DNA of 64,000 nucleotides from Propionicimonas sp. GTDB taxonomy: Bacteria; Actinomycetota; Actinomycetes; Propionibacteriales; Propionibacteriaceae. Shown here piece by piece: positions 2,625 to 9,529 of the stretch. Numbering within the stretch: position 1 is the first letter of the stretch; every line of letters starts with the position of its first letter. Made by a program: the position numbers and the translations under genes. The stretch is taken from assembly GCF_029975155.1 (NCBI RefSeq), contig NZ_JARKPQ010000108.1, positions 62,001 to 126,000 of the forward strand, written 5' to 3'. Below the pieces are notes generated by a model. That model saw only the letters and a list, made by a program, of their open reading frames with translations, did not search any database and was not told where the DNA came from.

Positions 2625-2891
2625 ATGAGTCTCCCGCACGAGATCAGCCAGCGCGATCTGCGCATGCGTTCGCGCGAGATCATGGACGCCGTTGAGCATG
2701 GCGAGAAGTTCACGGTGACTCGGGACGGGCGTCCGATCGGTGAACTCGTCCCGCTACGACCGCGGCGCTCCGTCCCGGCGGAGGAGTTCCTTGCGGCCAG
2801 TGCGTCCGCGCCACGCGTGGACTACGAGCAGTTCCGTCGCGATCTCGACGTGGTCATCGACCCCTATCTCCACGATCCGTATGAACGATGA
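2625..2891 (+). CDS. Phd/YefM-family antitoxin
   Basis: Predicted antitoxin that neutralises the PIN toxin encoded next and probably represses their shared promoter. The N-terminus has the Phd/YefM pattern: ISQRDLRMRSREIMDAVEHG, then TVTRDGRPIGELVPL. The acidic C-terminal tail would wrap the toxin. I chose the ATG at 2625 because homology begins at MSLPHEISQ; the ORF-track start 36 nt upstream adds an unrelated stretch. The gene is 88 aa and overlaps the toxin start by 11 nt, as is usual for such pairs. It follows the restriction gene by about 65 nt. Confidence 0.85.
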   Translation: MSLPHEISQRDLRMRSREIMDAVEHGEKFTVTRDGRPIGELVPLRPRRSVPAEEFLAASASAPRVDYEQFRRDLDVVIDPYLHDPYER

Positions 2892-3336
2892 GGACGCCGG
2901 CGGCGGGCGCATCCTGCTCGACACCAACGTCGTCATCTTCCGTCGGGACATACCTCCGCGGTACTTCACCGGTGAGGTGAGCATCAGCGCTGTGATCCTT
3001 GCCGAACTCACTGCGGGCGTCCACATGGTGGCGGGCGACGGTCCCGCTGCCATCGAGGAGCGCGCGATCCGCGCCGGTATCCTCCAGCGGACCGAGAATG
3101 AGTTCGATCCGATCCCGTTCGGGGCCGAAGCTGCGCGGATGTTCGGCCGCATGAGCGCTGCGGTCCGTGCTGCGGGACGTACGCCTCGACGTCGACGTGC
3201 CGACCTGATGATCGCGGCAACGGCAGCAGTAGAGGGCATGGCGCTGTACACGATGAATCCCGATGATTTCGTGGGCCTCGACAGGCTCGTGCAGGTGGTG
3301 GCGGTGCCACGTCCGGCACGGGAGAGCGGAAGGTAG
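2881..3336 (+). CDS. vapC: PIN-domain ribonuclease toxin (VapC-like)
   Basis: Probable RNase toxin of a type II toxin-antitoxin module. At 151 aa it is usual for a PIN protein. The acidic metal-binding residues are visible in LLDTNVVI near residue 13, in ILAELTAG near 40, in RRADLMIAATA near 105 and in NPDDF near 125. The true start is the ATG at 2881, inside the antitoxin's last codons; the longer ORF in the track begins in antisense-like sequence. The gene ends 25 nt from the convergent FG-GAP gene, marking the end of the accessory block. Confidence 0.87.
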   Translation: MNDEDAGGGRILLDTNVVIFRRDIPPRYFTGEVSISAVILAELTAGVHMVAGDGPAAIEERAIRAGILQRTENEFDPIPFGAEAARMFGRMSAAVRAAGRTPRRRRADLMIAATAAVEGMALYTMNPDDFVGLDRLVQVVAVPRPARESGR

Positions 3337-3360: not shown

Positions 3361-4905
3361 TCACTCGGTGCCGCCGCTGACGGTGCCGATGGTGGCACCG
3401 AAGCGGCTGGCTCCGGCGACCGGGATGGCGCCTCCGGGCACCCAGGCGCGCGGCGCGCCGCCGCCGAACGGGATCACGTCGACCATGCCGCCGGCCACGG
3501 CGGTGTCGTCCGGCACCCCCACCAGCAGGACGCGCTCCGTCGCGCCCGCCACCATGCCGAGGCTGTCGCCGAAGCGGTCACCGGCATGGGCCGCGCCCGG
3601 GACGCCGGGGCTACCCTGCGTCCACACCACGTCCGAGGCGAGGCCGCCCATCGGAAACACCTGGACGAGGCCGGCGTCCGTCCCGGCCGAGGTGTTCTCC
3701 CCGGGCGCGCCCACGGCCAGCCGGGTCTTCGTGTCGGCCAGGCCGGGTGCGATCCAGGCGACCTCGTCACCGAAGGTGTCACCGGGCTGGGCGCTGTCGG
3801 CCACGCCCGCCGTGTCCTGGGTGAGACCCACGCCGGCGTGCACGACGTGGGTGTCCGAGCTGAACAGCTGGACCATCCCCGCGTTCTTGTCCTTGCCGAC
3901 ATCCTCGCCCGGGACGCCGACCGCGATCCGGGACGTGCCACCCACCCGCACGGTGTCCAGGCTGCGGCCGTAGCGATCGCCCGCCTCGGCGACCCCGGGC
4001 ACGCCGGGGGCGTTCTGGCCGAGCGAGGTGCCGACCAGTTCGTCGGCGTAGTAGATGTCCCGGACGAGGATCACGTCCCCGGCGTCCTTCCGGGTGCCGA
4101 CGTCCTCGCCGGGTACGCCGACCGCGCAGTCGATGGTCTCGCCGGAGCCCGCGAGGTAGGTGCAGGACACCGCCGCCCCGAACCGGTCGCCGGCCTCCGC
4201 CACTCCGCCGATCCCCGGGGTGTCCGCCGTGATCCAGAAGCTCTCGGTGCCGCCGTCGTAGGCCGCGCGCACGGCGATCGCCCCGGCGTCGTCGTGGCCG
4301 GAGACGACCGCTCCCGGGACCCCGATCGCCAGCGCGTACGCGTCCGGATCGGGGGTGCCGCCCTGACCGACGTCCTCCACCGCATCCACGGCGAAGCCGA
4401 ACTGGTCACCGGCCGCGGCGACCTGACCGAAACTCGCCTGCGTGTACTGCGTGCTGCCCTCGCCGATCGCGAGACCTGCCGCGCCGCCCCACAGCACCTG
4501 GACCTGGCCCGCGTCCACGACGCCGAGGTCCTCACCGGGGACGCCCACGACGACGTCGGTGTCGTCGTCGCAGTCCAGATCGGCGACGGCGAGGGCACTG
4601 CCGAACCGGTCGCCCGGCTCGGCCACTCCGGCCACGCCGGCCTCACCCTGCCAGAGCACGTCTCTCGCGCCTTCACCGACCCGGCCGTCCGCGTCCCCGT
4701 AGAGCACGACGATGCGTCCCGCCTCCGCGTGGCCGGCCACCGTGGCGGACGGGTCGCCGACCACGGCGTCGGACCTGCCGTCGCCGTTGAAGTCCGAGCG
4801 CACGCCCGGCGCGCAGCCGTCCGCCGCGGCCTGTGCCGGCGCGGTGCTGACGGTGGGCGCTGCCACGAGCAGCGCGATTCCGGTGAGCAGTGCCTGGAGC
4901 CTCAT
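3361..4905 (-). CDS. Secreted FG-GAP repeat (integrin-alpha-like propeller) protein
   Basis: Exported protein of 514 aa with a Sec signal peptide (about residues 1-27, ending near PAQAAADG). It then has DFNGDGRSD, a calcium-loop-like motif, and about seven blocks of the form GVAEPGDRFGSAL...VGVPGEDLG. Those are FG-GAP repeats, which fold into a beta-propeller. No catalytic domain is visible, so a binding or surface role is likelier than an enzymatic one. ATG at 4905 has a good GGGAGGG ribosome site upstream. It lies 63 nt downstream of the helR-like gene on the same strand, so some read-through is possible, though the roles appear unrelated. Confidence 0.82.
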   Translation of the reverse strand: MRLQALLTGIALLVAAPTVSTAPAQAAADGCAPGVRSDFNGDGRSDAVVGDPSATVAGHAEAGRIVVLYGDADGRVGEGARDVLWQGEAGVAGVAEPGDRFGSALAVADLDCDDDTDVVVGVPGEDLGVVDAGQVQVLWGGAAGLAIGEGSTQYTQASFGQVAAAGDQFGFAVDAVEDVGQGGTPDPDAYALAIGVPGAVVSGHDDAGAIAVRAAYDGGTESFWITADTPGIGGVAEAGDRFGAAVSCTYLAGSGETIDCAVGVPGEDVGTRKDAGDVILVRDIYYADELVGTSLGQNAPGVPGVAEAGDRYGRSLDTVRVGGTSRIAVGVPGEDVGKDKNAGMVQLFSSDTHVVHAGVGLTQDTAGVADSAQPGDTFGDEVAWIAPGLADTKTRLAVGAPGENTSAGTDAGLVQVFPMGGLASDVVWTQGSPGVPGAAHAGDRFGDSLGMVAGATERVLLVGVPDDTAVAGGMVDVIPFGGGAPRAWVPGGAIPVAGASRFGATIGTVSGGTE

Positions 4906-4968: not shown

Positions 4969-7116
4969 CTACCCAGTGAGGGCGACCAGTTGCTGCGTGG
5001 TCCGGGTCATGGCGACATAGCGGTCGACGGCGGCCTCGACACCGGTGCCCATGCGGTCCGGATCGACCAGGATCACGAGGTCGAACTCGAGGCCCTTCGC
5101 GGTCTCCGGGGTCAGCGAACGGACGCGATCGGAGCCGGCGAAGCCGGAATCGCCGATGACGCAGGCGGTGCCCTCCGGGTTGCCGGCCAGCCACCGGTCG
5201 AGGATCGCGTCCAGCTCGGACCTCGAACCGTACCGGACGGGCAGGCCGCTGCGACGGATCGAGGTGGGCAGGTCGGCGTCCGGCAGCACCGCCCGGATGA
5301 TCGGCCCCGCCTCGGTCATGATCTCCTCGGGGGTGCGGTAGTTGATCGTCAGTGTGGACCGGGTGATCCGGTCGAACCCGAGTCGCTTGAGCCGCTCCTG
5401 CCAGGACTCGGTGAATCCGCGTCTGGCCTGGGCGCGGTCGCCGACGATGGTGAAGCTGCGGGACGGGCAGCGACTCAGCAACTGCTGCCACTCGGCGTCG
5501 GTGAGTTCCTGCGCCTCGTCGACGATGATGTGCGCGAAGGGGCCGGCCAGCAGGTCCCGGTCGGCCGAGGGCAGCCCCGCCTCGTCCACCAGCGCGGTCC
5601 GCAGGCTCTCCCGCCGCAGGAGCGGGAGCGGGCTCTCCGGATCGTCGTTGGCCGTGAGCAGGTCGTCGACCACCGTGTCCATGTAGGCGCGGTCGGCCTC
5701 GACGGCGAGCGCCCGGCGGCGTTCTCGTCCGAATGCCTCAGGGTCGCCGAGGCGTTGCCGCATGGCGTCCAGCAGGGGCAGGTCGGCGACGGTCCACGGG
5801 GAGCCCTCGGGTCGCCTCAGCGCCCGGACCTCCTCGGGGCTCAGCCAGGGTGCGCACCGGCGCAGGTAGGCGGGCACCGCCCACAGGTCGGCGACCAGCT
5901 CGGGCGCCTCGAGAATCGGCCAGGCCCGCCGGAACGTGTCCCACAGCTCCTCGTGCTGCGACAGCGCGCGCCGCAGCTGCTCGACGGGCACGTCCGGATT
6001 GCCGAAGCTGTCCACGAGGATGTCCAGCAGCGACTCCCAGACCAGGATGCGCGCCTCGTTGTGGGGCGTGCCCGGATCCGGCGCCTCGAACGCTTCGGCC
6101 CAGTCGGCGGCGCTCAGCCACACTTCGCCCCACTCGGTCTCGACGGTCATGCCCGTGGCCGGCGGCTCCTCGTACAGGCCCACCGCGGGCCCGACCGCCC
6201 TCAGCAGCTCGGCCGACGCCTTCAGCCCGGCGACCTCCGGGTCCGGCTCGGGGACGGCCGTGGCTCCCTCGGGGACCAGGTCGCGCAGCGTGCAGGTCAG
6301 TACGCCCTCCTCGTCAAGGCTGGGCAGGACGTCGCTGACATAGGCCAGATAGGGCTGGTGTGGGCCGACGAACAGCAGGCCACCGCCGCGTCCGCTCAGC
6401 CGCGGGTCGGCGTAGAGCAGGTAGGCGGCGCGGTGCAGTGCGACCACGGTCTTGCCGGTGCCCGGCCCGCCGTCCACCACCAGGGCGCCGTGCGAGCCGG
6501 CCCGGACGATCGCGTCCTGGTCGGCCTGGATCGTGGCGAGCACGTCGCGCATGCGGCTCGACCGGCTGGTGCCGAGGCTGGCGATGAAAGCCGAGTTCTC
6601 GTCCAGCGCAAGGTGTTCGTGGCCGTCGCCGGGGACGAGCACCTCGTCCCAGTAGTCGCGGATCCGTCCGTCCACCCAGCGATACCTGCGGCGACTCGTC
6701 AGGCCCATCGGACGGGCCTGGGTCGCCGCGAAGTACGGCTCCGCCGCGGGCGTGCGCCAGTCGAGCAGCAATTGGCGTCCGTCGCGAGCGGCGAGCCCGA
6801 TCCGGCCCACGTAGACCGGCTCGTCCTCGCCGGCCTGGACCATCCGTCCCAGGCACACGTCCAGACCGAACCGGCGCAGCAGGCGGAGTTGCGCCGAGAG
6901 CCGGTGGATCTCCAGATCACGATCCAGCGCACCGCGCCCGCGTCGTCCCGGCGCGCGGCGAAGCTCGTCGAGCCGGGCGGTGAGGTCGGCGACGCGTTGG
7001 TCGAGGCAGCCGGCCACCGCGGCGAAGTGTGCGACGTCCGCACCGATCAGTGCGGCGTCGGTCTTGGCGGCGAGCCGCTCAGGAAGGGTGAAGATGTCCG
7101 TCGCCACGGGTGTCAC
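4969..7116 (-). CDS. helR: HelR/HelD-like RNA polymerase-recycling ATPase (superfamily 1)
   Basis: HelR-type proteins use ATP to displace stalled or rifamycin-bound RNA polymerase and so confer rifamycin tolerance. The 715-aa protein has an N-terminal coiled-coil-like region (about 20-90), Walker A GGPGTGKTVVALH near residue 216, Walker B VDEAQELTDAEW near 540, motif IV NYRTPEE, and motifs V/VI ETAKGLEFDLV and YVAMTRTTQQL at the C-terminus. Unlike UvrD or Rep it has the HelD layout with a large divergent middle. GTG at 7116 has AGGAGG 5 nt upstream. The RAE palindrome at its promoter supports the HelR assignment over a generic helicase. Confidence 0.85.
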   Translation of the reverse strand: MTPVATDIFTLPERLAAKTDAALIGADVAHFAAVAGCLDQRVADLTARLDELRRAPGRRGRGALDRDLEIHRLSAQLRLLRRFGLDVCLGRMVQAGEDEPVYVGRIGLAARDGRQLLLDWRTPAAEPYFAATQARPMGLTSRRRYRWVDGRIRDYWDEVLVPGDGHEHLALDENSAFIASLGTSRSSRMRDVLATIQADQDAIVRAGSHGALVVDGGPGTGKTVVALHRAAYLLYADPRLSGRGGGLLFVGPHQPYLAYVSDVLPSLDEEGVLTCTLRDLVPEGATAVPEPDPEVAGLKASAELLRAVGPAVGLYEEPPATGMTVETEWGEVWLSAADWAEAFEAPDPGTPHNEARILVWESLLDILVDSFGNPDVPVEQLRRALSQHEELWDTFRRAWPILEAPELVADLWAVPAYLRRCAPWLSPEEVRALRRPEGSPWTVADLPLLDAMRQRLGDPEAFGRERRRALAVEADRAYMDTVVDDLLTANDDPESPLPLLRRESLRTALVDEAGLPSADRDLLAGPFAHIIVDEAQELTDAEWQQLLSRCPSRSFTIVGDRAQARRGFTESWQERLKRLGFDRITRSTLTINYRTPEEIMTEAGPIIRAVLPDADLPTSIRRSGLPVRYGSRSELDAILDRWLAGNPEGTACVIGDSGFAGSDRVRSLTPETAKGLEFDLVILVDPDRMGTGVEAAVDRYVAMTRTTQQLVALTG

Positions 7117-7161
7117 GGCTGCCTCCTGCGCTTGAAACCGGACCCGAGTGTGCGCCTTCAG

Positions 7162-7184
7162 GGGGGCCTTGCGGCAAGGCCCCC
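7162..7184 (-). promoter_or_regulatory. Rifamycin-associated element (RAE) upstream of helR
   Basis: A perfect 11-bp inverted repeat, GGGGGCCTTGC / GCAAGGCCCCC around a single G, lies 46 nt upstream of the helR start. It closely matches the RAE described upstream of rifamycin-resistance genes in actinomycetes, which from memory reads GGGGCTTGCGGCAAGGCCCC. The element sits just downstream of the candidate -10, covering about +1 to +22, a suitable position for sensing blocked polymerase or for a repressor. The sequence match is direct; the regulatory role is inferred from the family. Confidence 0.85.
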
Positions 7185-7189
7185 TCTGC

Positions 7190-7219
7190 GTTATATGTTG
7201 GAAATGCAGGCGGAGTCAG
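7190..7219 (-). promoter_or_regulatory. Candidate sigma70-type promoter of helR
   Basis: On the minus strand CTGACT (-35-like, 7214-7219) and TATAAC (-10, 7190-7195) are separated by 18 nt. The predicted start, near 7183, falls at the edge of the RAE. The -10 is strong and the -35 moderate. Confidence 0.5.
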
Positions 7220-7246
7220 ACCGCCGCGTACACTCCTCTCGTCCAG

Positions 7247-9328
7247 CTACAGCGAGACCAGCGCGCCGCCGCGTCGCGGGGTCAGCAGGAACGCCAGCAG
7301 GTAGAGCCCGGCCACCAGCACCAGCAGGTTGCGGTAGCCGGTGAGCAGCGCCAGGTACTCCAGGCAGCCGCCCAGCATGGCTCCGAGCAGGTTCAGCCCG
7401 AACGCCGAGCGGGAGTCGTCGGACGCGGCGAACCGCTTCGCGAACGCGACATTGGCCAGGTAGATCGGGACGAACGCCAGCAGTACCGCTACCAGCAGGC
7501 GTGGCACCAGGGGCAGGGTGAGCAGCCAGGCCGGCTCCACCAGGTAGGAGACCGCCAGCGCCGCGGCGATCCCGCCGAACACCACCGGCAGCGGGGGAGT
7601 GCGGAACCGCCTGGTGGTCTCCACCGCTGCCAGCACGATCACCAGCACGCCGGCGAACACCAGGGCGTTGACCAGCCAGGTGGTGCCGAACAGCAGCGCG
7701 AAGGTGGCGATGTTCTTGGTCTCCAGCAGCAGGAAGGCGGCGCCCATGAAGAACAGGTCGGCGTAGGGGCGCATCTCCCGGAACGGCCCGCCCAGTGCGC
7801 GGACGGCGATCAGCGAGATCAGCAGGATGCCGCCGAGCGTCCACGCGTAGAGCGGCGGGATCGCGCCACCCTGGAAGTACAGGAACGGACGGTCGTCGCT
7901 CGCCGGGGCCACCACTGTCCCGGACGGGGTGTAGGCCGTTGCACAGGACTGCTTGCTCTCGTCGAGCGCGGCCGTGACCACGGCCTGCGCGCCCTCGGAG
8001 AGGTCCACGCAGGGGGCGTGCCCGAAGGCGGCCTCCACCGTGCCGGCCAGCCGGTCGATCAGCCACTGCTCGCGGTAGTAGTTGTACATCGAGAACGCGC
8101 CGTCGGGAGACAGGTGGTCCCTGGCGGCGGTGAGCGCCTCCTCGGTGAACAGGAAGCTCTCCAGCCGGATCTGGGATGCGCCGGTCACCAGCGCCAGCGA
8201 GTCGGGCAGGGCGAACAGGATCAGGTCGTAGGTGGTGTCGGTGGCCTCGAGGAAGGCGCGTCCGTCGTTGACGTGCCGGGTCACCCTGGGGTCGGAGTAC
8301 GGGTGATCGGGGTTCTTCTCGGCGCCGATCTGCATGATCCGCGGGTCGATGTCCACCGCGTCGATGTGCTGGGCACCCTTGGCGAGCGCGATCGCCACGT
8401 CCGAGCCCGACCCGGCGCCGATGATCAGCACGTTCCGCAGCGGGTTCTGCGGCGAACGCAGGTAGGGGTAGCCGTACTGCGGTTCCTCGACCAGCCGCTG
8501 GGACGCCGCCCGGACGATCTGGTGCGGAACCCCGTTCACGGAGATGTCCGTCAGGGGCAACCCGGCATAGGTCCGGTCCTCGGTGTGGACTTTGTAGTAC
8601 GGCGACCACGAGATGCCGGGCTGGATCGTCTCGACCAGCAGGAAGGCGATCATCACCGCACCGGCCACGGCGGCCACCCCGCGCTGCCAGCCTCCGATCA
8701 GCACCACGAAGGCGAGCGTCACCAGCACGCCCCAGACCACGGACGGGGCACCGAGGAACGACAGCAGGGTAAACGAGCAGATACCGATCAGCGAACCGAC
8801 AAGGTCCCAGCGGTAGGCGGTCAGCGGTCGCAGTTCGCCGAAGCACCGGCCCACCACCTCGGACGGCGCGGCCAGCACGGCGGCGACCAGGACGAAGATC
8901 AGGGGCAGCACCAGCCAGGCGGGCGGCCCGGACGTGCTGAGCGAGGTGAAGTAGATGATCTGGTCGCCCGCCCGGTCGATGGTCACCGGCGCCAGCAGCG
9001 TCGCGGCCACCAGGACGGTCAGGATCACCGGGCCGGCCGGCAGCACCGACCAGGACCTGCGGGCGATCAGGAAGCCGAGCCCGACGCCCAGGAAGGAGCC
9101 GAGCAGCACGAAGTTCGAGAAGTAGCTCAGGTGCACCACATTGGACCCGAGCCAGCGGATCAGCGCCAGTTCGAGGAACAGCATCAGCGCGCTACCCAGT
9201 ACCAGCCGGCGCACCACCGGGTAGCGGGGCCGCTCCGGCTCGGCCTCCGGCGGCAGCCGCCACGAGCGCCGGATGGCCGCTGGCCCCGCCGGCCGGGTCC
9301 CGGTCGCCTCTCCCGTACCGTGTGCCAT
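7247..9328 (-). CDS. Multi-pass membrane protein with spermidine-synthase-like domain
   Basis: A 693-aa protein with an N-terminal block of hydrophobic helices (about residues 35-260), a soluble Rossmann methyltransferase/spermidine-synthase-like domain (about 300-470) and further hydrophobic helices to the C-terminus. NVLIIGAGSGSDVAIAL is the nucleotide-binding loop, and AVDIDPRIM followed by DGRAFLEAT are typical of the polyamine aminopropyltransferase fold. The substrate is unknown, and many such membrane homologues are unlikely to make spermidine. The ATG at 9328 (MAHGTGEATG) has GGAGGT about 6 nt upstream and is preferred over the 19-codon longer ORF. It is upstream of helR on the same strand, 130 nt away. 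Confidence 0.75.
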   Translation of the reverse strand: MAHGTGEATGTRPAGPAAIRRSWRLPPEAEPERPRYPVVRRLVLGSALMLFLELALIRWLGSNVVHLSYFSNFVLLGSFLGVGLGFLIARRSWSVLPAGPVILTVLVAATLLAPVTIDRAGDQIIYFTSLSTSGPPAWLVLPLIFVLVAAVLAAPSEVVGRCFGELRPLTAYRWDLVGSLIGICSFTLLSFLGAPSVVWGVLVTLAFVVLIGGWQRGVAAVAGAVMIAFLLVETIQPGISWSPYYKVHTEDRTYAGLPLTDISVNGVPHQIVRAASQRLVEEPQYGYPYLRSPQNPLRNVLIIGAGSGSDVAIALAKGAQHIDAVDIDPRIMQIGAEKNPDHPYSDPRVTRHVNDGRAFLEATDTTYDLILFALPDSLALVTGASQIRLESFLFTEEALTAARDHLSPDGAFSMYNYYREQWLIDRLAGTVEAAFGHAPCVDLSEGAQAVVTAALDESKQSCATAYTPSGTVVAPASDDRPFLYFQGGAIPPLYAWTLGGILLISLIAVRALGGPFREMRPYADLFFMGAAFLLLETKNIATFALLFGTTWLVNALVFAGVLVIVLAAVETTRRFRTPPLPVVFGGIAAALAVSYLVEPAWLLTLPLVPRLLVAVLLAFVPIYLANVAFAKRFAASDDSRSAFGLNLLGAMLGGCLEYLALLTGYRNLLVLVAGLYLLAFLLTPRRGGALVSL

Positions 9329-9529
9329 GTTCCACCTCCGCCGTCTCGGTACTGGTCGCCCTGTTGCCCAAGCTAGAGGGTGCACGGCAGGCCTGTCAGG
9401 GATCGGGGGCAGATCGCGGGCGCCCGCCCAGGCCGACTACGCAACTCCCGGCATGGGCAGGACGGGCGGAGCGTCCTACTGTGGATCGCCGACCGGACGA
9501 CGGTCGCCCGGTCCGCGGTGGAGGGTGCT

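Follow-up and report, generated by a model that had tools for sequence, protein, structure and literature searches.

The window (the whole stretch of 64,000 nucleotides that was analysed, with a GC content of 71%) contains on its minus strand a gene, helR, that encodes a 715 amino acid RNA polymerase recycling and rifamycin-displacing ATPase, annotated by its match to the NCBIfam profile NF041254 (4969-7116). The start codon is GTG and a ribosome-binding site, AGGAGG, can be read in the sequence at 7124-7129 (minus strand). Directly upstream and co-oriented is a gene for a 694 amino acid membrane protein with a spermidine-synthase-like domain (7247-9331, minus strand), and directly downstream, in the same orientation, is a gene for a 514 amino acid FG-GAP repeat protein (3361-4905, minus strand). 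The window also contains a type II restriction-modification pair (121-2558) made up of an Eco57I-like N6 DNA methylase (121-1602) and a BsuBI/PstI restriction endonuclease (1599-2558), which overlap by four bases. Adjoining this pair is a gene for a PIN-domain protein that is possibly a VapC-like toxin (2740-3336).

Judged by its sequence, 4969-7116 encodes a full-length, genuine HelR. The protein scores 1183.7 bits against the NF041254 motor_HelR profile, for which the curated cut-off is 750 bits, and covers model positions 1-706 of 706. The competing profiles score 409.6 bits (a second HelR model) and 362.8 bits (M. smegmatis HelD). It is 54-67% identical to other NF041254 members, and its close relatives from named genomes include proteins from two Propionibacteriaceae bins, which makes the host probably a member of that family. 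Residues 55-712 align with the M. smegmatis HelD structure 6yxu (E 4.8e-94) and the ATPase motifs are intact (Walker A GGPGTGKT from residue 216, DEAQE from 533, and NYRTP from 592), in agreement with a preliminary description of this DNA that had recognized the HelD/HelR motif set. As in class II HelD proteins, there is a short N-terminal arm and a primary-channel loop with an acidic tip. The acidic NDDPE from residue 490 aligns with the tip 482-DDED-485 of M. smegmatis HelD, which reaches into the active site (PMC7749160). We predict that this HelR is likely to displace rifamycin from RNA polymerase and to protect the cell.

Between helR and the membrane protein gene lies a perfect inverted repeat, GGGGGCCTTGC-G-GCAAGGCCCCC (7162-7184), with 11-bp arms and a single central base pair (dyad at G7173), as first described. 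About ten other inverted repeats of 10-11 bp, with spacers of 0-7 nt, were found in the window, so repeats of this length are not rare as such. The specificity of the palindrome comes from its match to the core of the rifamycin-associated element (RAE), GGGNCTTGCNGCAAGNCCC. This 19-bp core is matched exactly at one site in the 5.0-Mb genome, where 0.009 matches are expected by chance, and the form GGGNCTTGC-S-GCAAGNCCC is kept in 128 relatives. A genome-wide search found no second RAE at up to three mismatches of the 21-mer; allowing up to two mismatches in the extended architecture likewise gave no further site. There is a rifamycin-resistance gene downstream, with the helR start codon 57 bp from the dyad. 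The identity of the palindrome as an RAE, which the preliminary description had proposed, is confirmed.

A palindrome between two co-oriented genes, with a 10-bp GC stem that can fold, could instead serve only to end transcription of the upstream gene (7247-9331, minus strand), as an intrinsic terminator, or act as an RNA hairpin. We consider this highly improbable: no T tract is present on either side, there is no terminator call, the sequence itself and not merely its pairing is invariant, and the palindrome precedes several unrelated rifamycin-resistance genes. The terminator reading was rejected for want of a T tract. Structure at the RNA level was also rejected, with leader folding no better than that of shuffled sequences (z = -0.17).

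The host genome is divided into 404 contigs with an estimated contamination of 8.3%; it is thus probably a metagenome bin, and links between its contigs are uncertain. The helR contig also contains a homologue of the arr-type rifamycin ADP-ribosyltransferases (L175; C386:32750-33046), about 36 kb from helR and beside a tRNA-like sequence. No RAE was found before this second resistance gene of the genome. At the main resistance positions, the rifamycin region of RpoB has the residues usual for drug sensitivity; N-to-T, L-to-V, and S-to-A changes lie nearby, relative to what we take to be the reference stretch.

The pairing of RAE and helR is found across actinobacteria. In a sample of 297 genomes of the phylum, an RAE lies near all 12 proteins above the HelR cut-off, and the RAE pattern was found at none of the 18 lower-scoring HelD relatives. 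Of the 92 helR loci that we examined, 80 come from named genomes, with Streptomyces, Nonomuraea, Microbispora, Kribbella, Micromonospora, Cellulomonas, Nocardia, and Nocardioides among the genera. The RAE is upstream of helR in 88 of these 92 loci and was not found there in L062, L073, L098, and L102. In L062, a Jatrophihabitans bin, a different palindrome, GGCCTCATGAGGCC, takes the place of the RAE about 100 bp upstream of helR, with a TATAGC-like block on its far side from the gene; possibly it is a divergent element. The RAE-plus-promoter pattern (at most one mismatch) was found in 38 of 118 genomes of the host family, of which at least three look like chance matches. No viral contig was found to carry the RAE plus its sense -10.

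The preliminary description had predicted inducible rifamycin tolerance in a lineage outside Streptomyces. Induction through the window RAE is likely, from homology with characterised RAE-helR pairs (PMC10719064, PMC8655204). The novelty of the claim is lowered, as RAE-linked helR outside Streptomyces has already been reported in Mycobacterium, Nonomuraea, Microbacterium, and Nocardia (PMC8655204, PMC10719064). In S. venezuelae (SVEN_6029) and M. abscessus (MAB_3189c), the same palindrome precedes the gene for an orthologous or paralogous ATPase that recycles RNA polymerase, and both RAE-helR loci are rifamycin-induced and protective (PMC10719064, PMC8655204). Compared with these, the window locus has a new host lineage (probably Propionibacteriaceae) and a longer perfect palindrome (11-bp arms).

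The main alignment consisted of 83 non-redundant helR RAEs centred on the dyad, chosen by the palindrome alone without regard to the flanks. Conservation in these loci spans about -41 to +40 from the dyad and includes two hexamers at mirrored positions. A gene-facing CANAAT lies at +21 to +26, with A at promoter position -11 and T at -7 in 83/83 loci. On the opposite strand, at -21 to -26, TANNNT faces away from the gene in 82 of the 83, and the sole exception (L108) is shifted by one base. A second set of RAEs was found by pattern alone, class-wide and in a mycobacterial genus (an assignment inferred from the HelD and Arr types of its genomes), and was oriented by the adjoining gene. Both hexamers are present in all 50 pattern RAEs beside helR, arr, rox, rgt, rph, or mycobacterial helD, and in none of the six pattern hits without such a rifamycin-resistance gene. 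When the non-redundant RAEs are pooled (n = 128), the gene-facing hexamer (NANNNT) is found in 128 and the outward TANNNT in 126; the TTG triad of the RAE is invariant in these relatives. The hexamer pair appears again in 22 sites at mycobacterial helD loci, a set to which we give less weight because the hexamers were counted in the site score and two of the sites belong to a neighbouring rgt. The symmetric -10 geometry about the RAE dyad is strongly supported by these alignments. A second short conserved palindrome occurs in addition in many helR relatives, at the predicted helR transcript start (+31 to +40 from the dyad). It reads GGCCGAGGCC and then AGAA, and it is absent in that form from the window.

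In the window, the candidate helR-facing promoter has a -10 hexamer, CACACT (7147-7152, minus strand), at the fixed +21 to +26 position, and a -35 hexamer, TTGCCG (7172-7177, minus strand), within the RAE. The predicted helR transcript start is near 7140. The candidate outward, antisense promoter has a -35 hexamer, TTGCGG (7169-7174, plus strand), that mirrors and overlaps the sense -35, and a -10 hexamer, TATGTT (7194-7199, plus strand), at the mirror position, with a predicted start near 7206. Taking TTGC as the -35 gives each promoter a 19-bp spacer, which is long for sigma-A. Position -12 is usually C, rarely G or A, and never T in the gene-facing hexamer, whereas it is T in 49/50 outward hexamers; from this difference the gene-facing promoter looks deliberately weaker.

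The RAE has the conserved gene-facing -10 on its downstream side, so it is probably the -35 region of the helR promoter and upstream of the helR start site. The preliminary description had placed the RAE at +1 to +22 of a sense promoter, with a -10 (TATAAC) upstream and the RAE as the first transcribed bases under a stalled polymerase. With CACACT at 7152-7147, a polymerase stalled over the RAE does not follow. In favour of the upstream -10 are the TATAAC at 7195-7190, with CTGACT 18 bp away, and the mapping of a further sense promoter upstream in M. smegmatis (PMC10719064). In relatives, however, this block is mostly TATAGC or TATAAC and never has T at -7, and TANNNT in the sense direction at that place occurs in 0/83 and 0/50. 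Nor is there a conserved sense -10 upstream in the mycobacterial helD loci, and the start mapped in M. smegmatis is described as lying some 20 bp upstream of the RAE rather than at its edge (PMC10719064). The upstream reading is gone in L122, L012, L014, and L015, which retain the antisense hexamer; in L122 the sense reading is TCCGCG and the antisense hexamer is GATAAT. On this evidence the placement at +1 to +22 is probably wrong, and we give the model built on it little credence.

The same block also bears on how the outward hexamer is read. In mycobacteria the second TA of the TATAAC-type block falls to 70% and 35%, and only A-26, T-22, and A-21 stay at 100%; these correspond to T-7, A-11, and T-12 of the antisense hexamer. 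As ANNNT is self-mirroring, a sense CANNNT at -27 to -22 also fits formally. We prefer the antisense reading because -21 is conserved, because the hexamer is the exact mirror of the sense -10 about the dyad, and because of a hairpin on the outward side.

By symmetry with the sense side, the antisense start is predicted near -33. In 60/131 loci, a perfect stem (7 bp or longer) begins within 2 nt of -33. In 49 loci the stem begins exactly at -33, where 4.8 are expected when the rest is shuffled. On the antisense strand, at least three T are present in the eight bases directly after the stem in 53 of the 60 hairpin loci; with the T tract on this side, the hairpin would terminate antisense and not sense transcription. 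The hairpin shows covariation, with compensatory pairs at several stem positions. It is absent from most mycobacterial arr and rox loci, and the window has a weak one, GGCGG-N7-CCGCC, just past the predicted antisense start (7210-7226, plus strand), with a 5-bp stem and no T tract. For both of these reasons we regard the hairpin as accessory.

We propose that the RAE may be the shared centre of a divergent promoter switch that is tipped towards helR by rifamycin, a proposal that we judge evenly poised between right and wrong. Of this, the analysis shows the RAE and the identity of its gene, the symmetric -10 pair at fixed positions, the -12 asymmetry, and the orientation of the hairpin. There would be two back-to-back sigma-A-type promoters with overlapping -35 elements in the TTGC arms of the RAE. 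The weaker gene-facing promoter (RAE -35, 19-bp spacer, and -10 CANAAT, which is CACACT in the window) would produce helR with a short leader. The outward promoter, with a better -10 (TANNNT) and the other RAE arm, would produce a very short antisense RNA, often terminated at once. RNA polymerase should occupy one promoter at a time because the -35 regions overlap. We infer, as the simplest reading, that both promoters fire and compete, with the antisense promoter normally winning and keeping helR low. Initiation at the antisense promoter, the busier of the two, would be disturbed by sub-inhibitory rifamycin, and polymerase would turn to the resistance gene: helR here, and arr, rox, rgt, or rph at other loci. 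HelR may then remove rifamycin-stalled polymerase from promoters.

More tentatively, and with less than even confidence, we suggest that the RAE could be a rifamycin sensor that consists of RNA polymerase only. The element would be a palindromic double -35 and not a transcription-factor site, and it would serve helR, arr, rox, rgt, and rph across actinobacteria. Polymerase would choose between the resistance-gene promoter and a busy antisense promoter whose transcript ends at once, and rifamycin would alter that choice.

Several findings count against the divergent switch. A polymerase arrested at the antisense promoter should itself block the overlapping sense promoter, and in B. subtilis steric overlap of the promoters abolished induction (PMC12802891). 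This difficulty could be resolved by basal HelR clearance, by short-lived stalled complexes, or by an RAE-binding factor. The 19-bp spacers, the formal fit of the sense CANNNT, and the weak hairpin of the window also count against it, as does the GG/CC at arm positions 7-8, which is invariant though needed by no -35. The invariant GG/CC hints at an additional ligand and keeps the factor hypothesis alive.

The RAE could in that case be the operator of a dimeric regulator that senses rifamycin or blocked RNA polymerase. It would overlap both -35 regions, and helR would be controlled by release or binding of the factor and not by polymerase competition. An operator has already been proposed (PMC10719064, PMC12802891), and a January 2026 paper regards the workings of the RAE as yet to be clarified, with an unknown factor as one possibility (PMC12802891). 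An operator would account for the invariance of GG/CC outside any -35 in a palindrome of 23 bp; the suboptimal 19-bp spacers also speak for it. On its own, it leaves unexplained why the outward -10 is kept in 126 of the 128 RAEs and is followed by an immediate terminator hairpin, and we know of no cognate RAE regulator. We regard the operator as a real possibility, though one that falls short of probable.

The divergent switch resembles the dual-promoter rifampicin alarm of B. subtilis helD and pps, in which a stronger antisense promoter is proposed to repress and rifampicin to relieve (PMC12802891). In both, an antisense promoter would hold a resistance gene low, and helD is a shared target. 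The B. subtilis promoters are convergent and sterically separate, whereas the predicted RAE promoters are divergent, with a shared palindromic -35 and an antisense RNA that would often be terminated at once. The window locus, with its predicted divergent arrangement and overlapping -35 elements, is not of the B. subtilis type but may work in a similar way. Two sense promoters have been mapped at M. smegmatis helD, and the -35 of the second lies in the RAE (PMC10719064). Among the most induced genes in this species after 20 min of rifampicin are rox, helD, and arr (PMC6529629). The RAE-linked arr, rox, rgt, and rph of actinobacteria have the same RAE and the same mirrored -10 pair; their products are rifamycin-modifying enzymes, whereas HelR is a polymerase-protecting ATPase. 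The mirrored RAE promoter architecture appears to be new as far as the literature searched shows, the primary RAE and HelR descriptions being outside that search.

Rifamycins are front-line drugs against tuberculosis and other mycobacterial infections, and inducible RAE-linked resistance contributes to natural rifamycin resistance, for example in M. abscessus. The conserved divergent promoter pair gives exact, testable positions for how the RAE senses the drug. The architecture is also a better signature for rifamycin-resistance genes, as it split the 50 linked RAEs from the six others without error among the hits examined. Three mycobacterial helD loci (L194, L216, and L217) form a decay series, in which loss or degeneration of the RAE goes with that of one or both -10 hexamers. 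In L216 and L217, where the RAE is degenerate, the correctly spaced hexamer pair is lost as well. These loci are useful as natural mutants.
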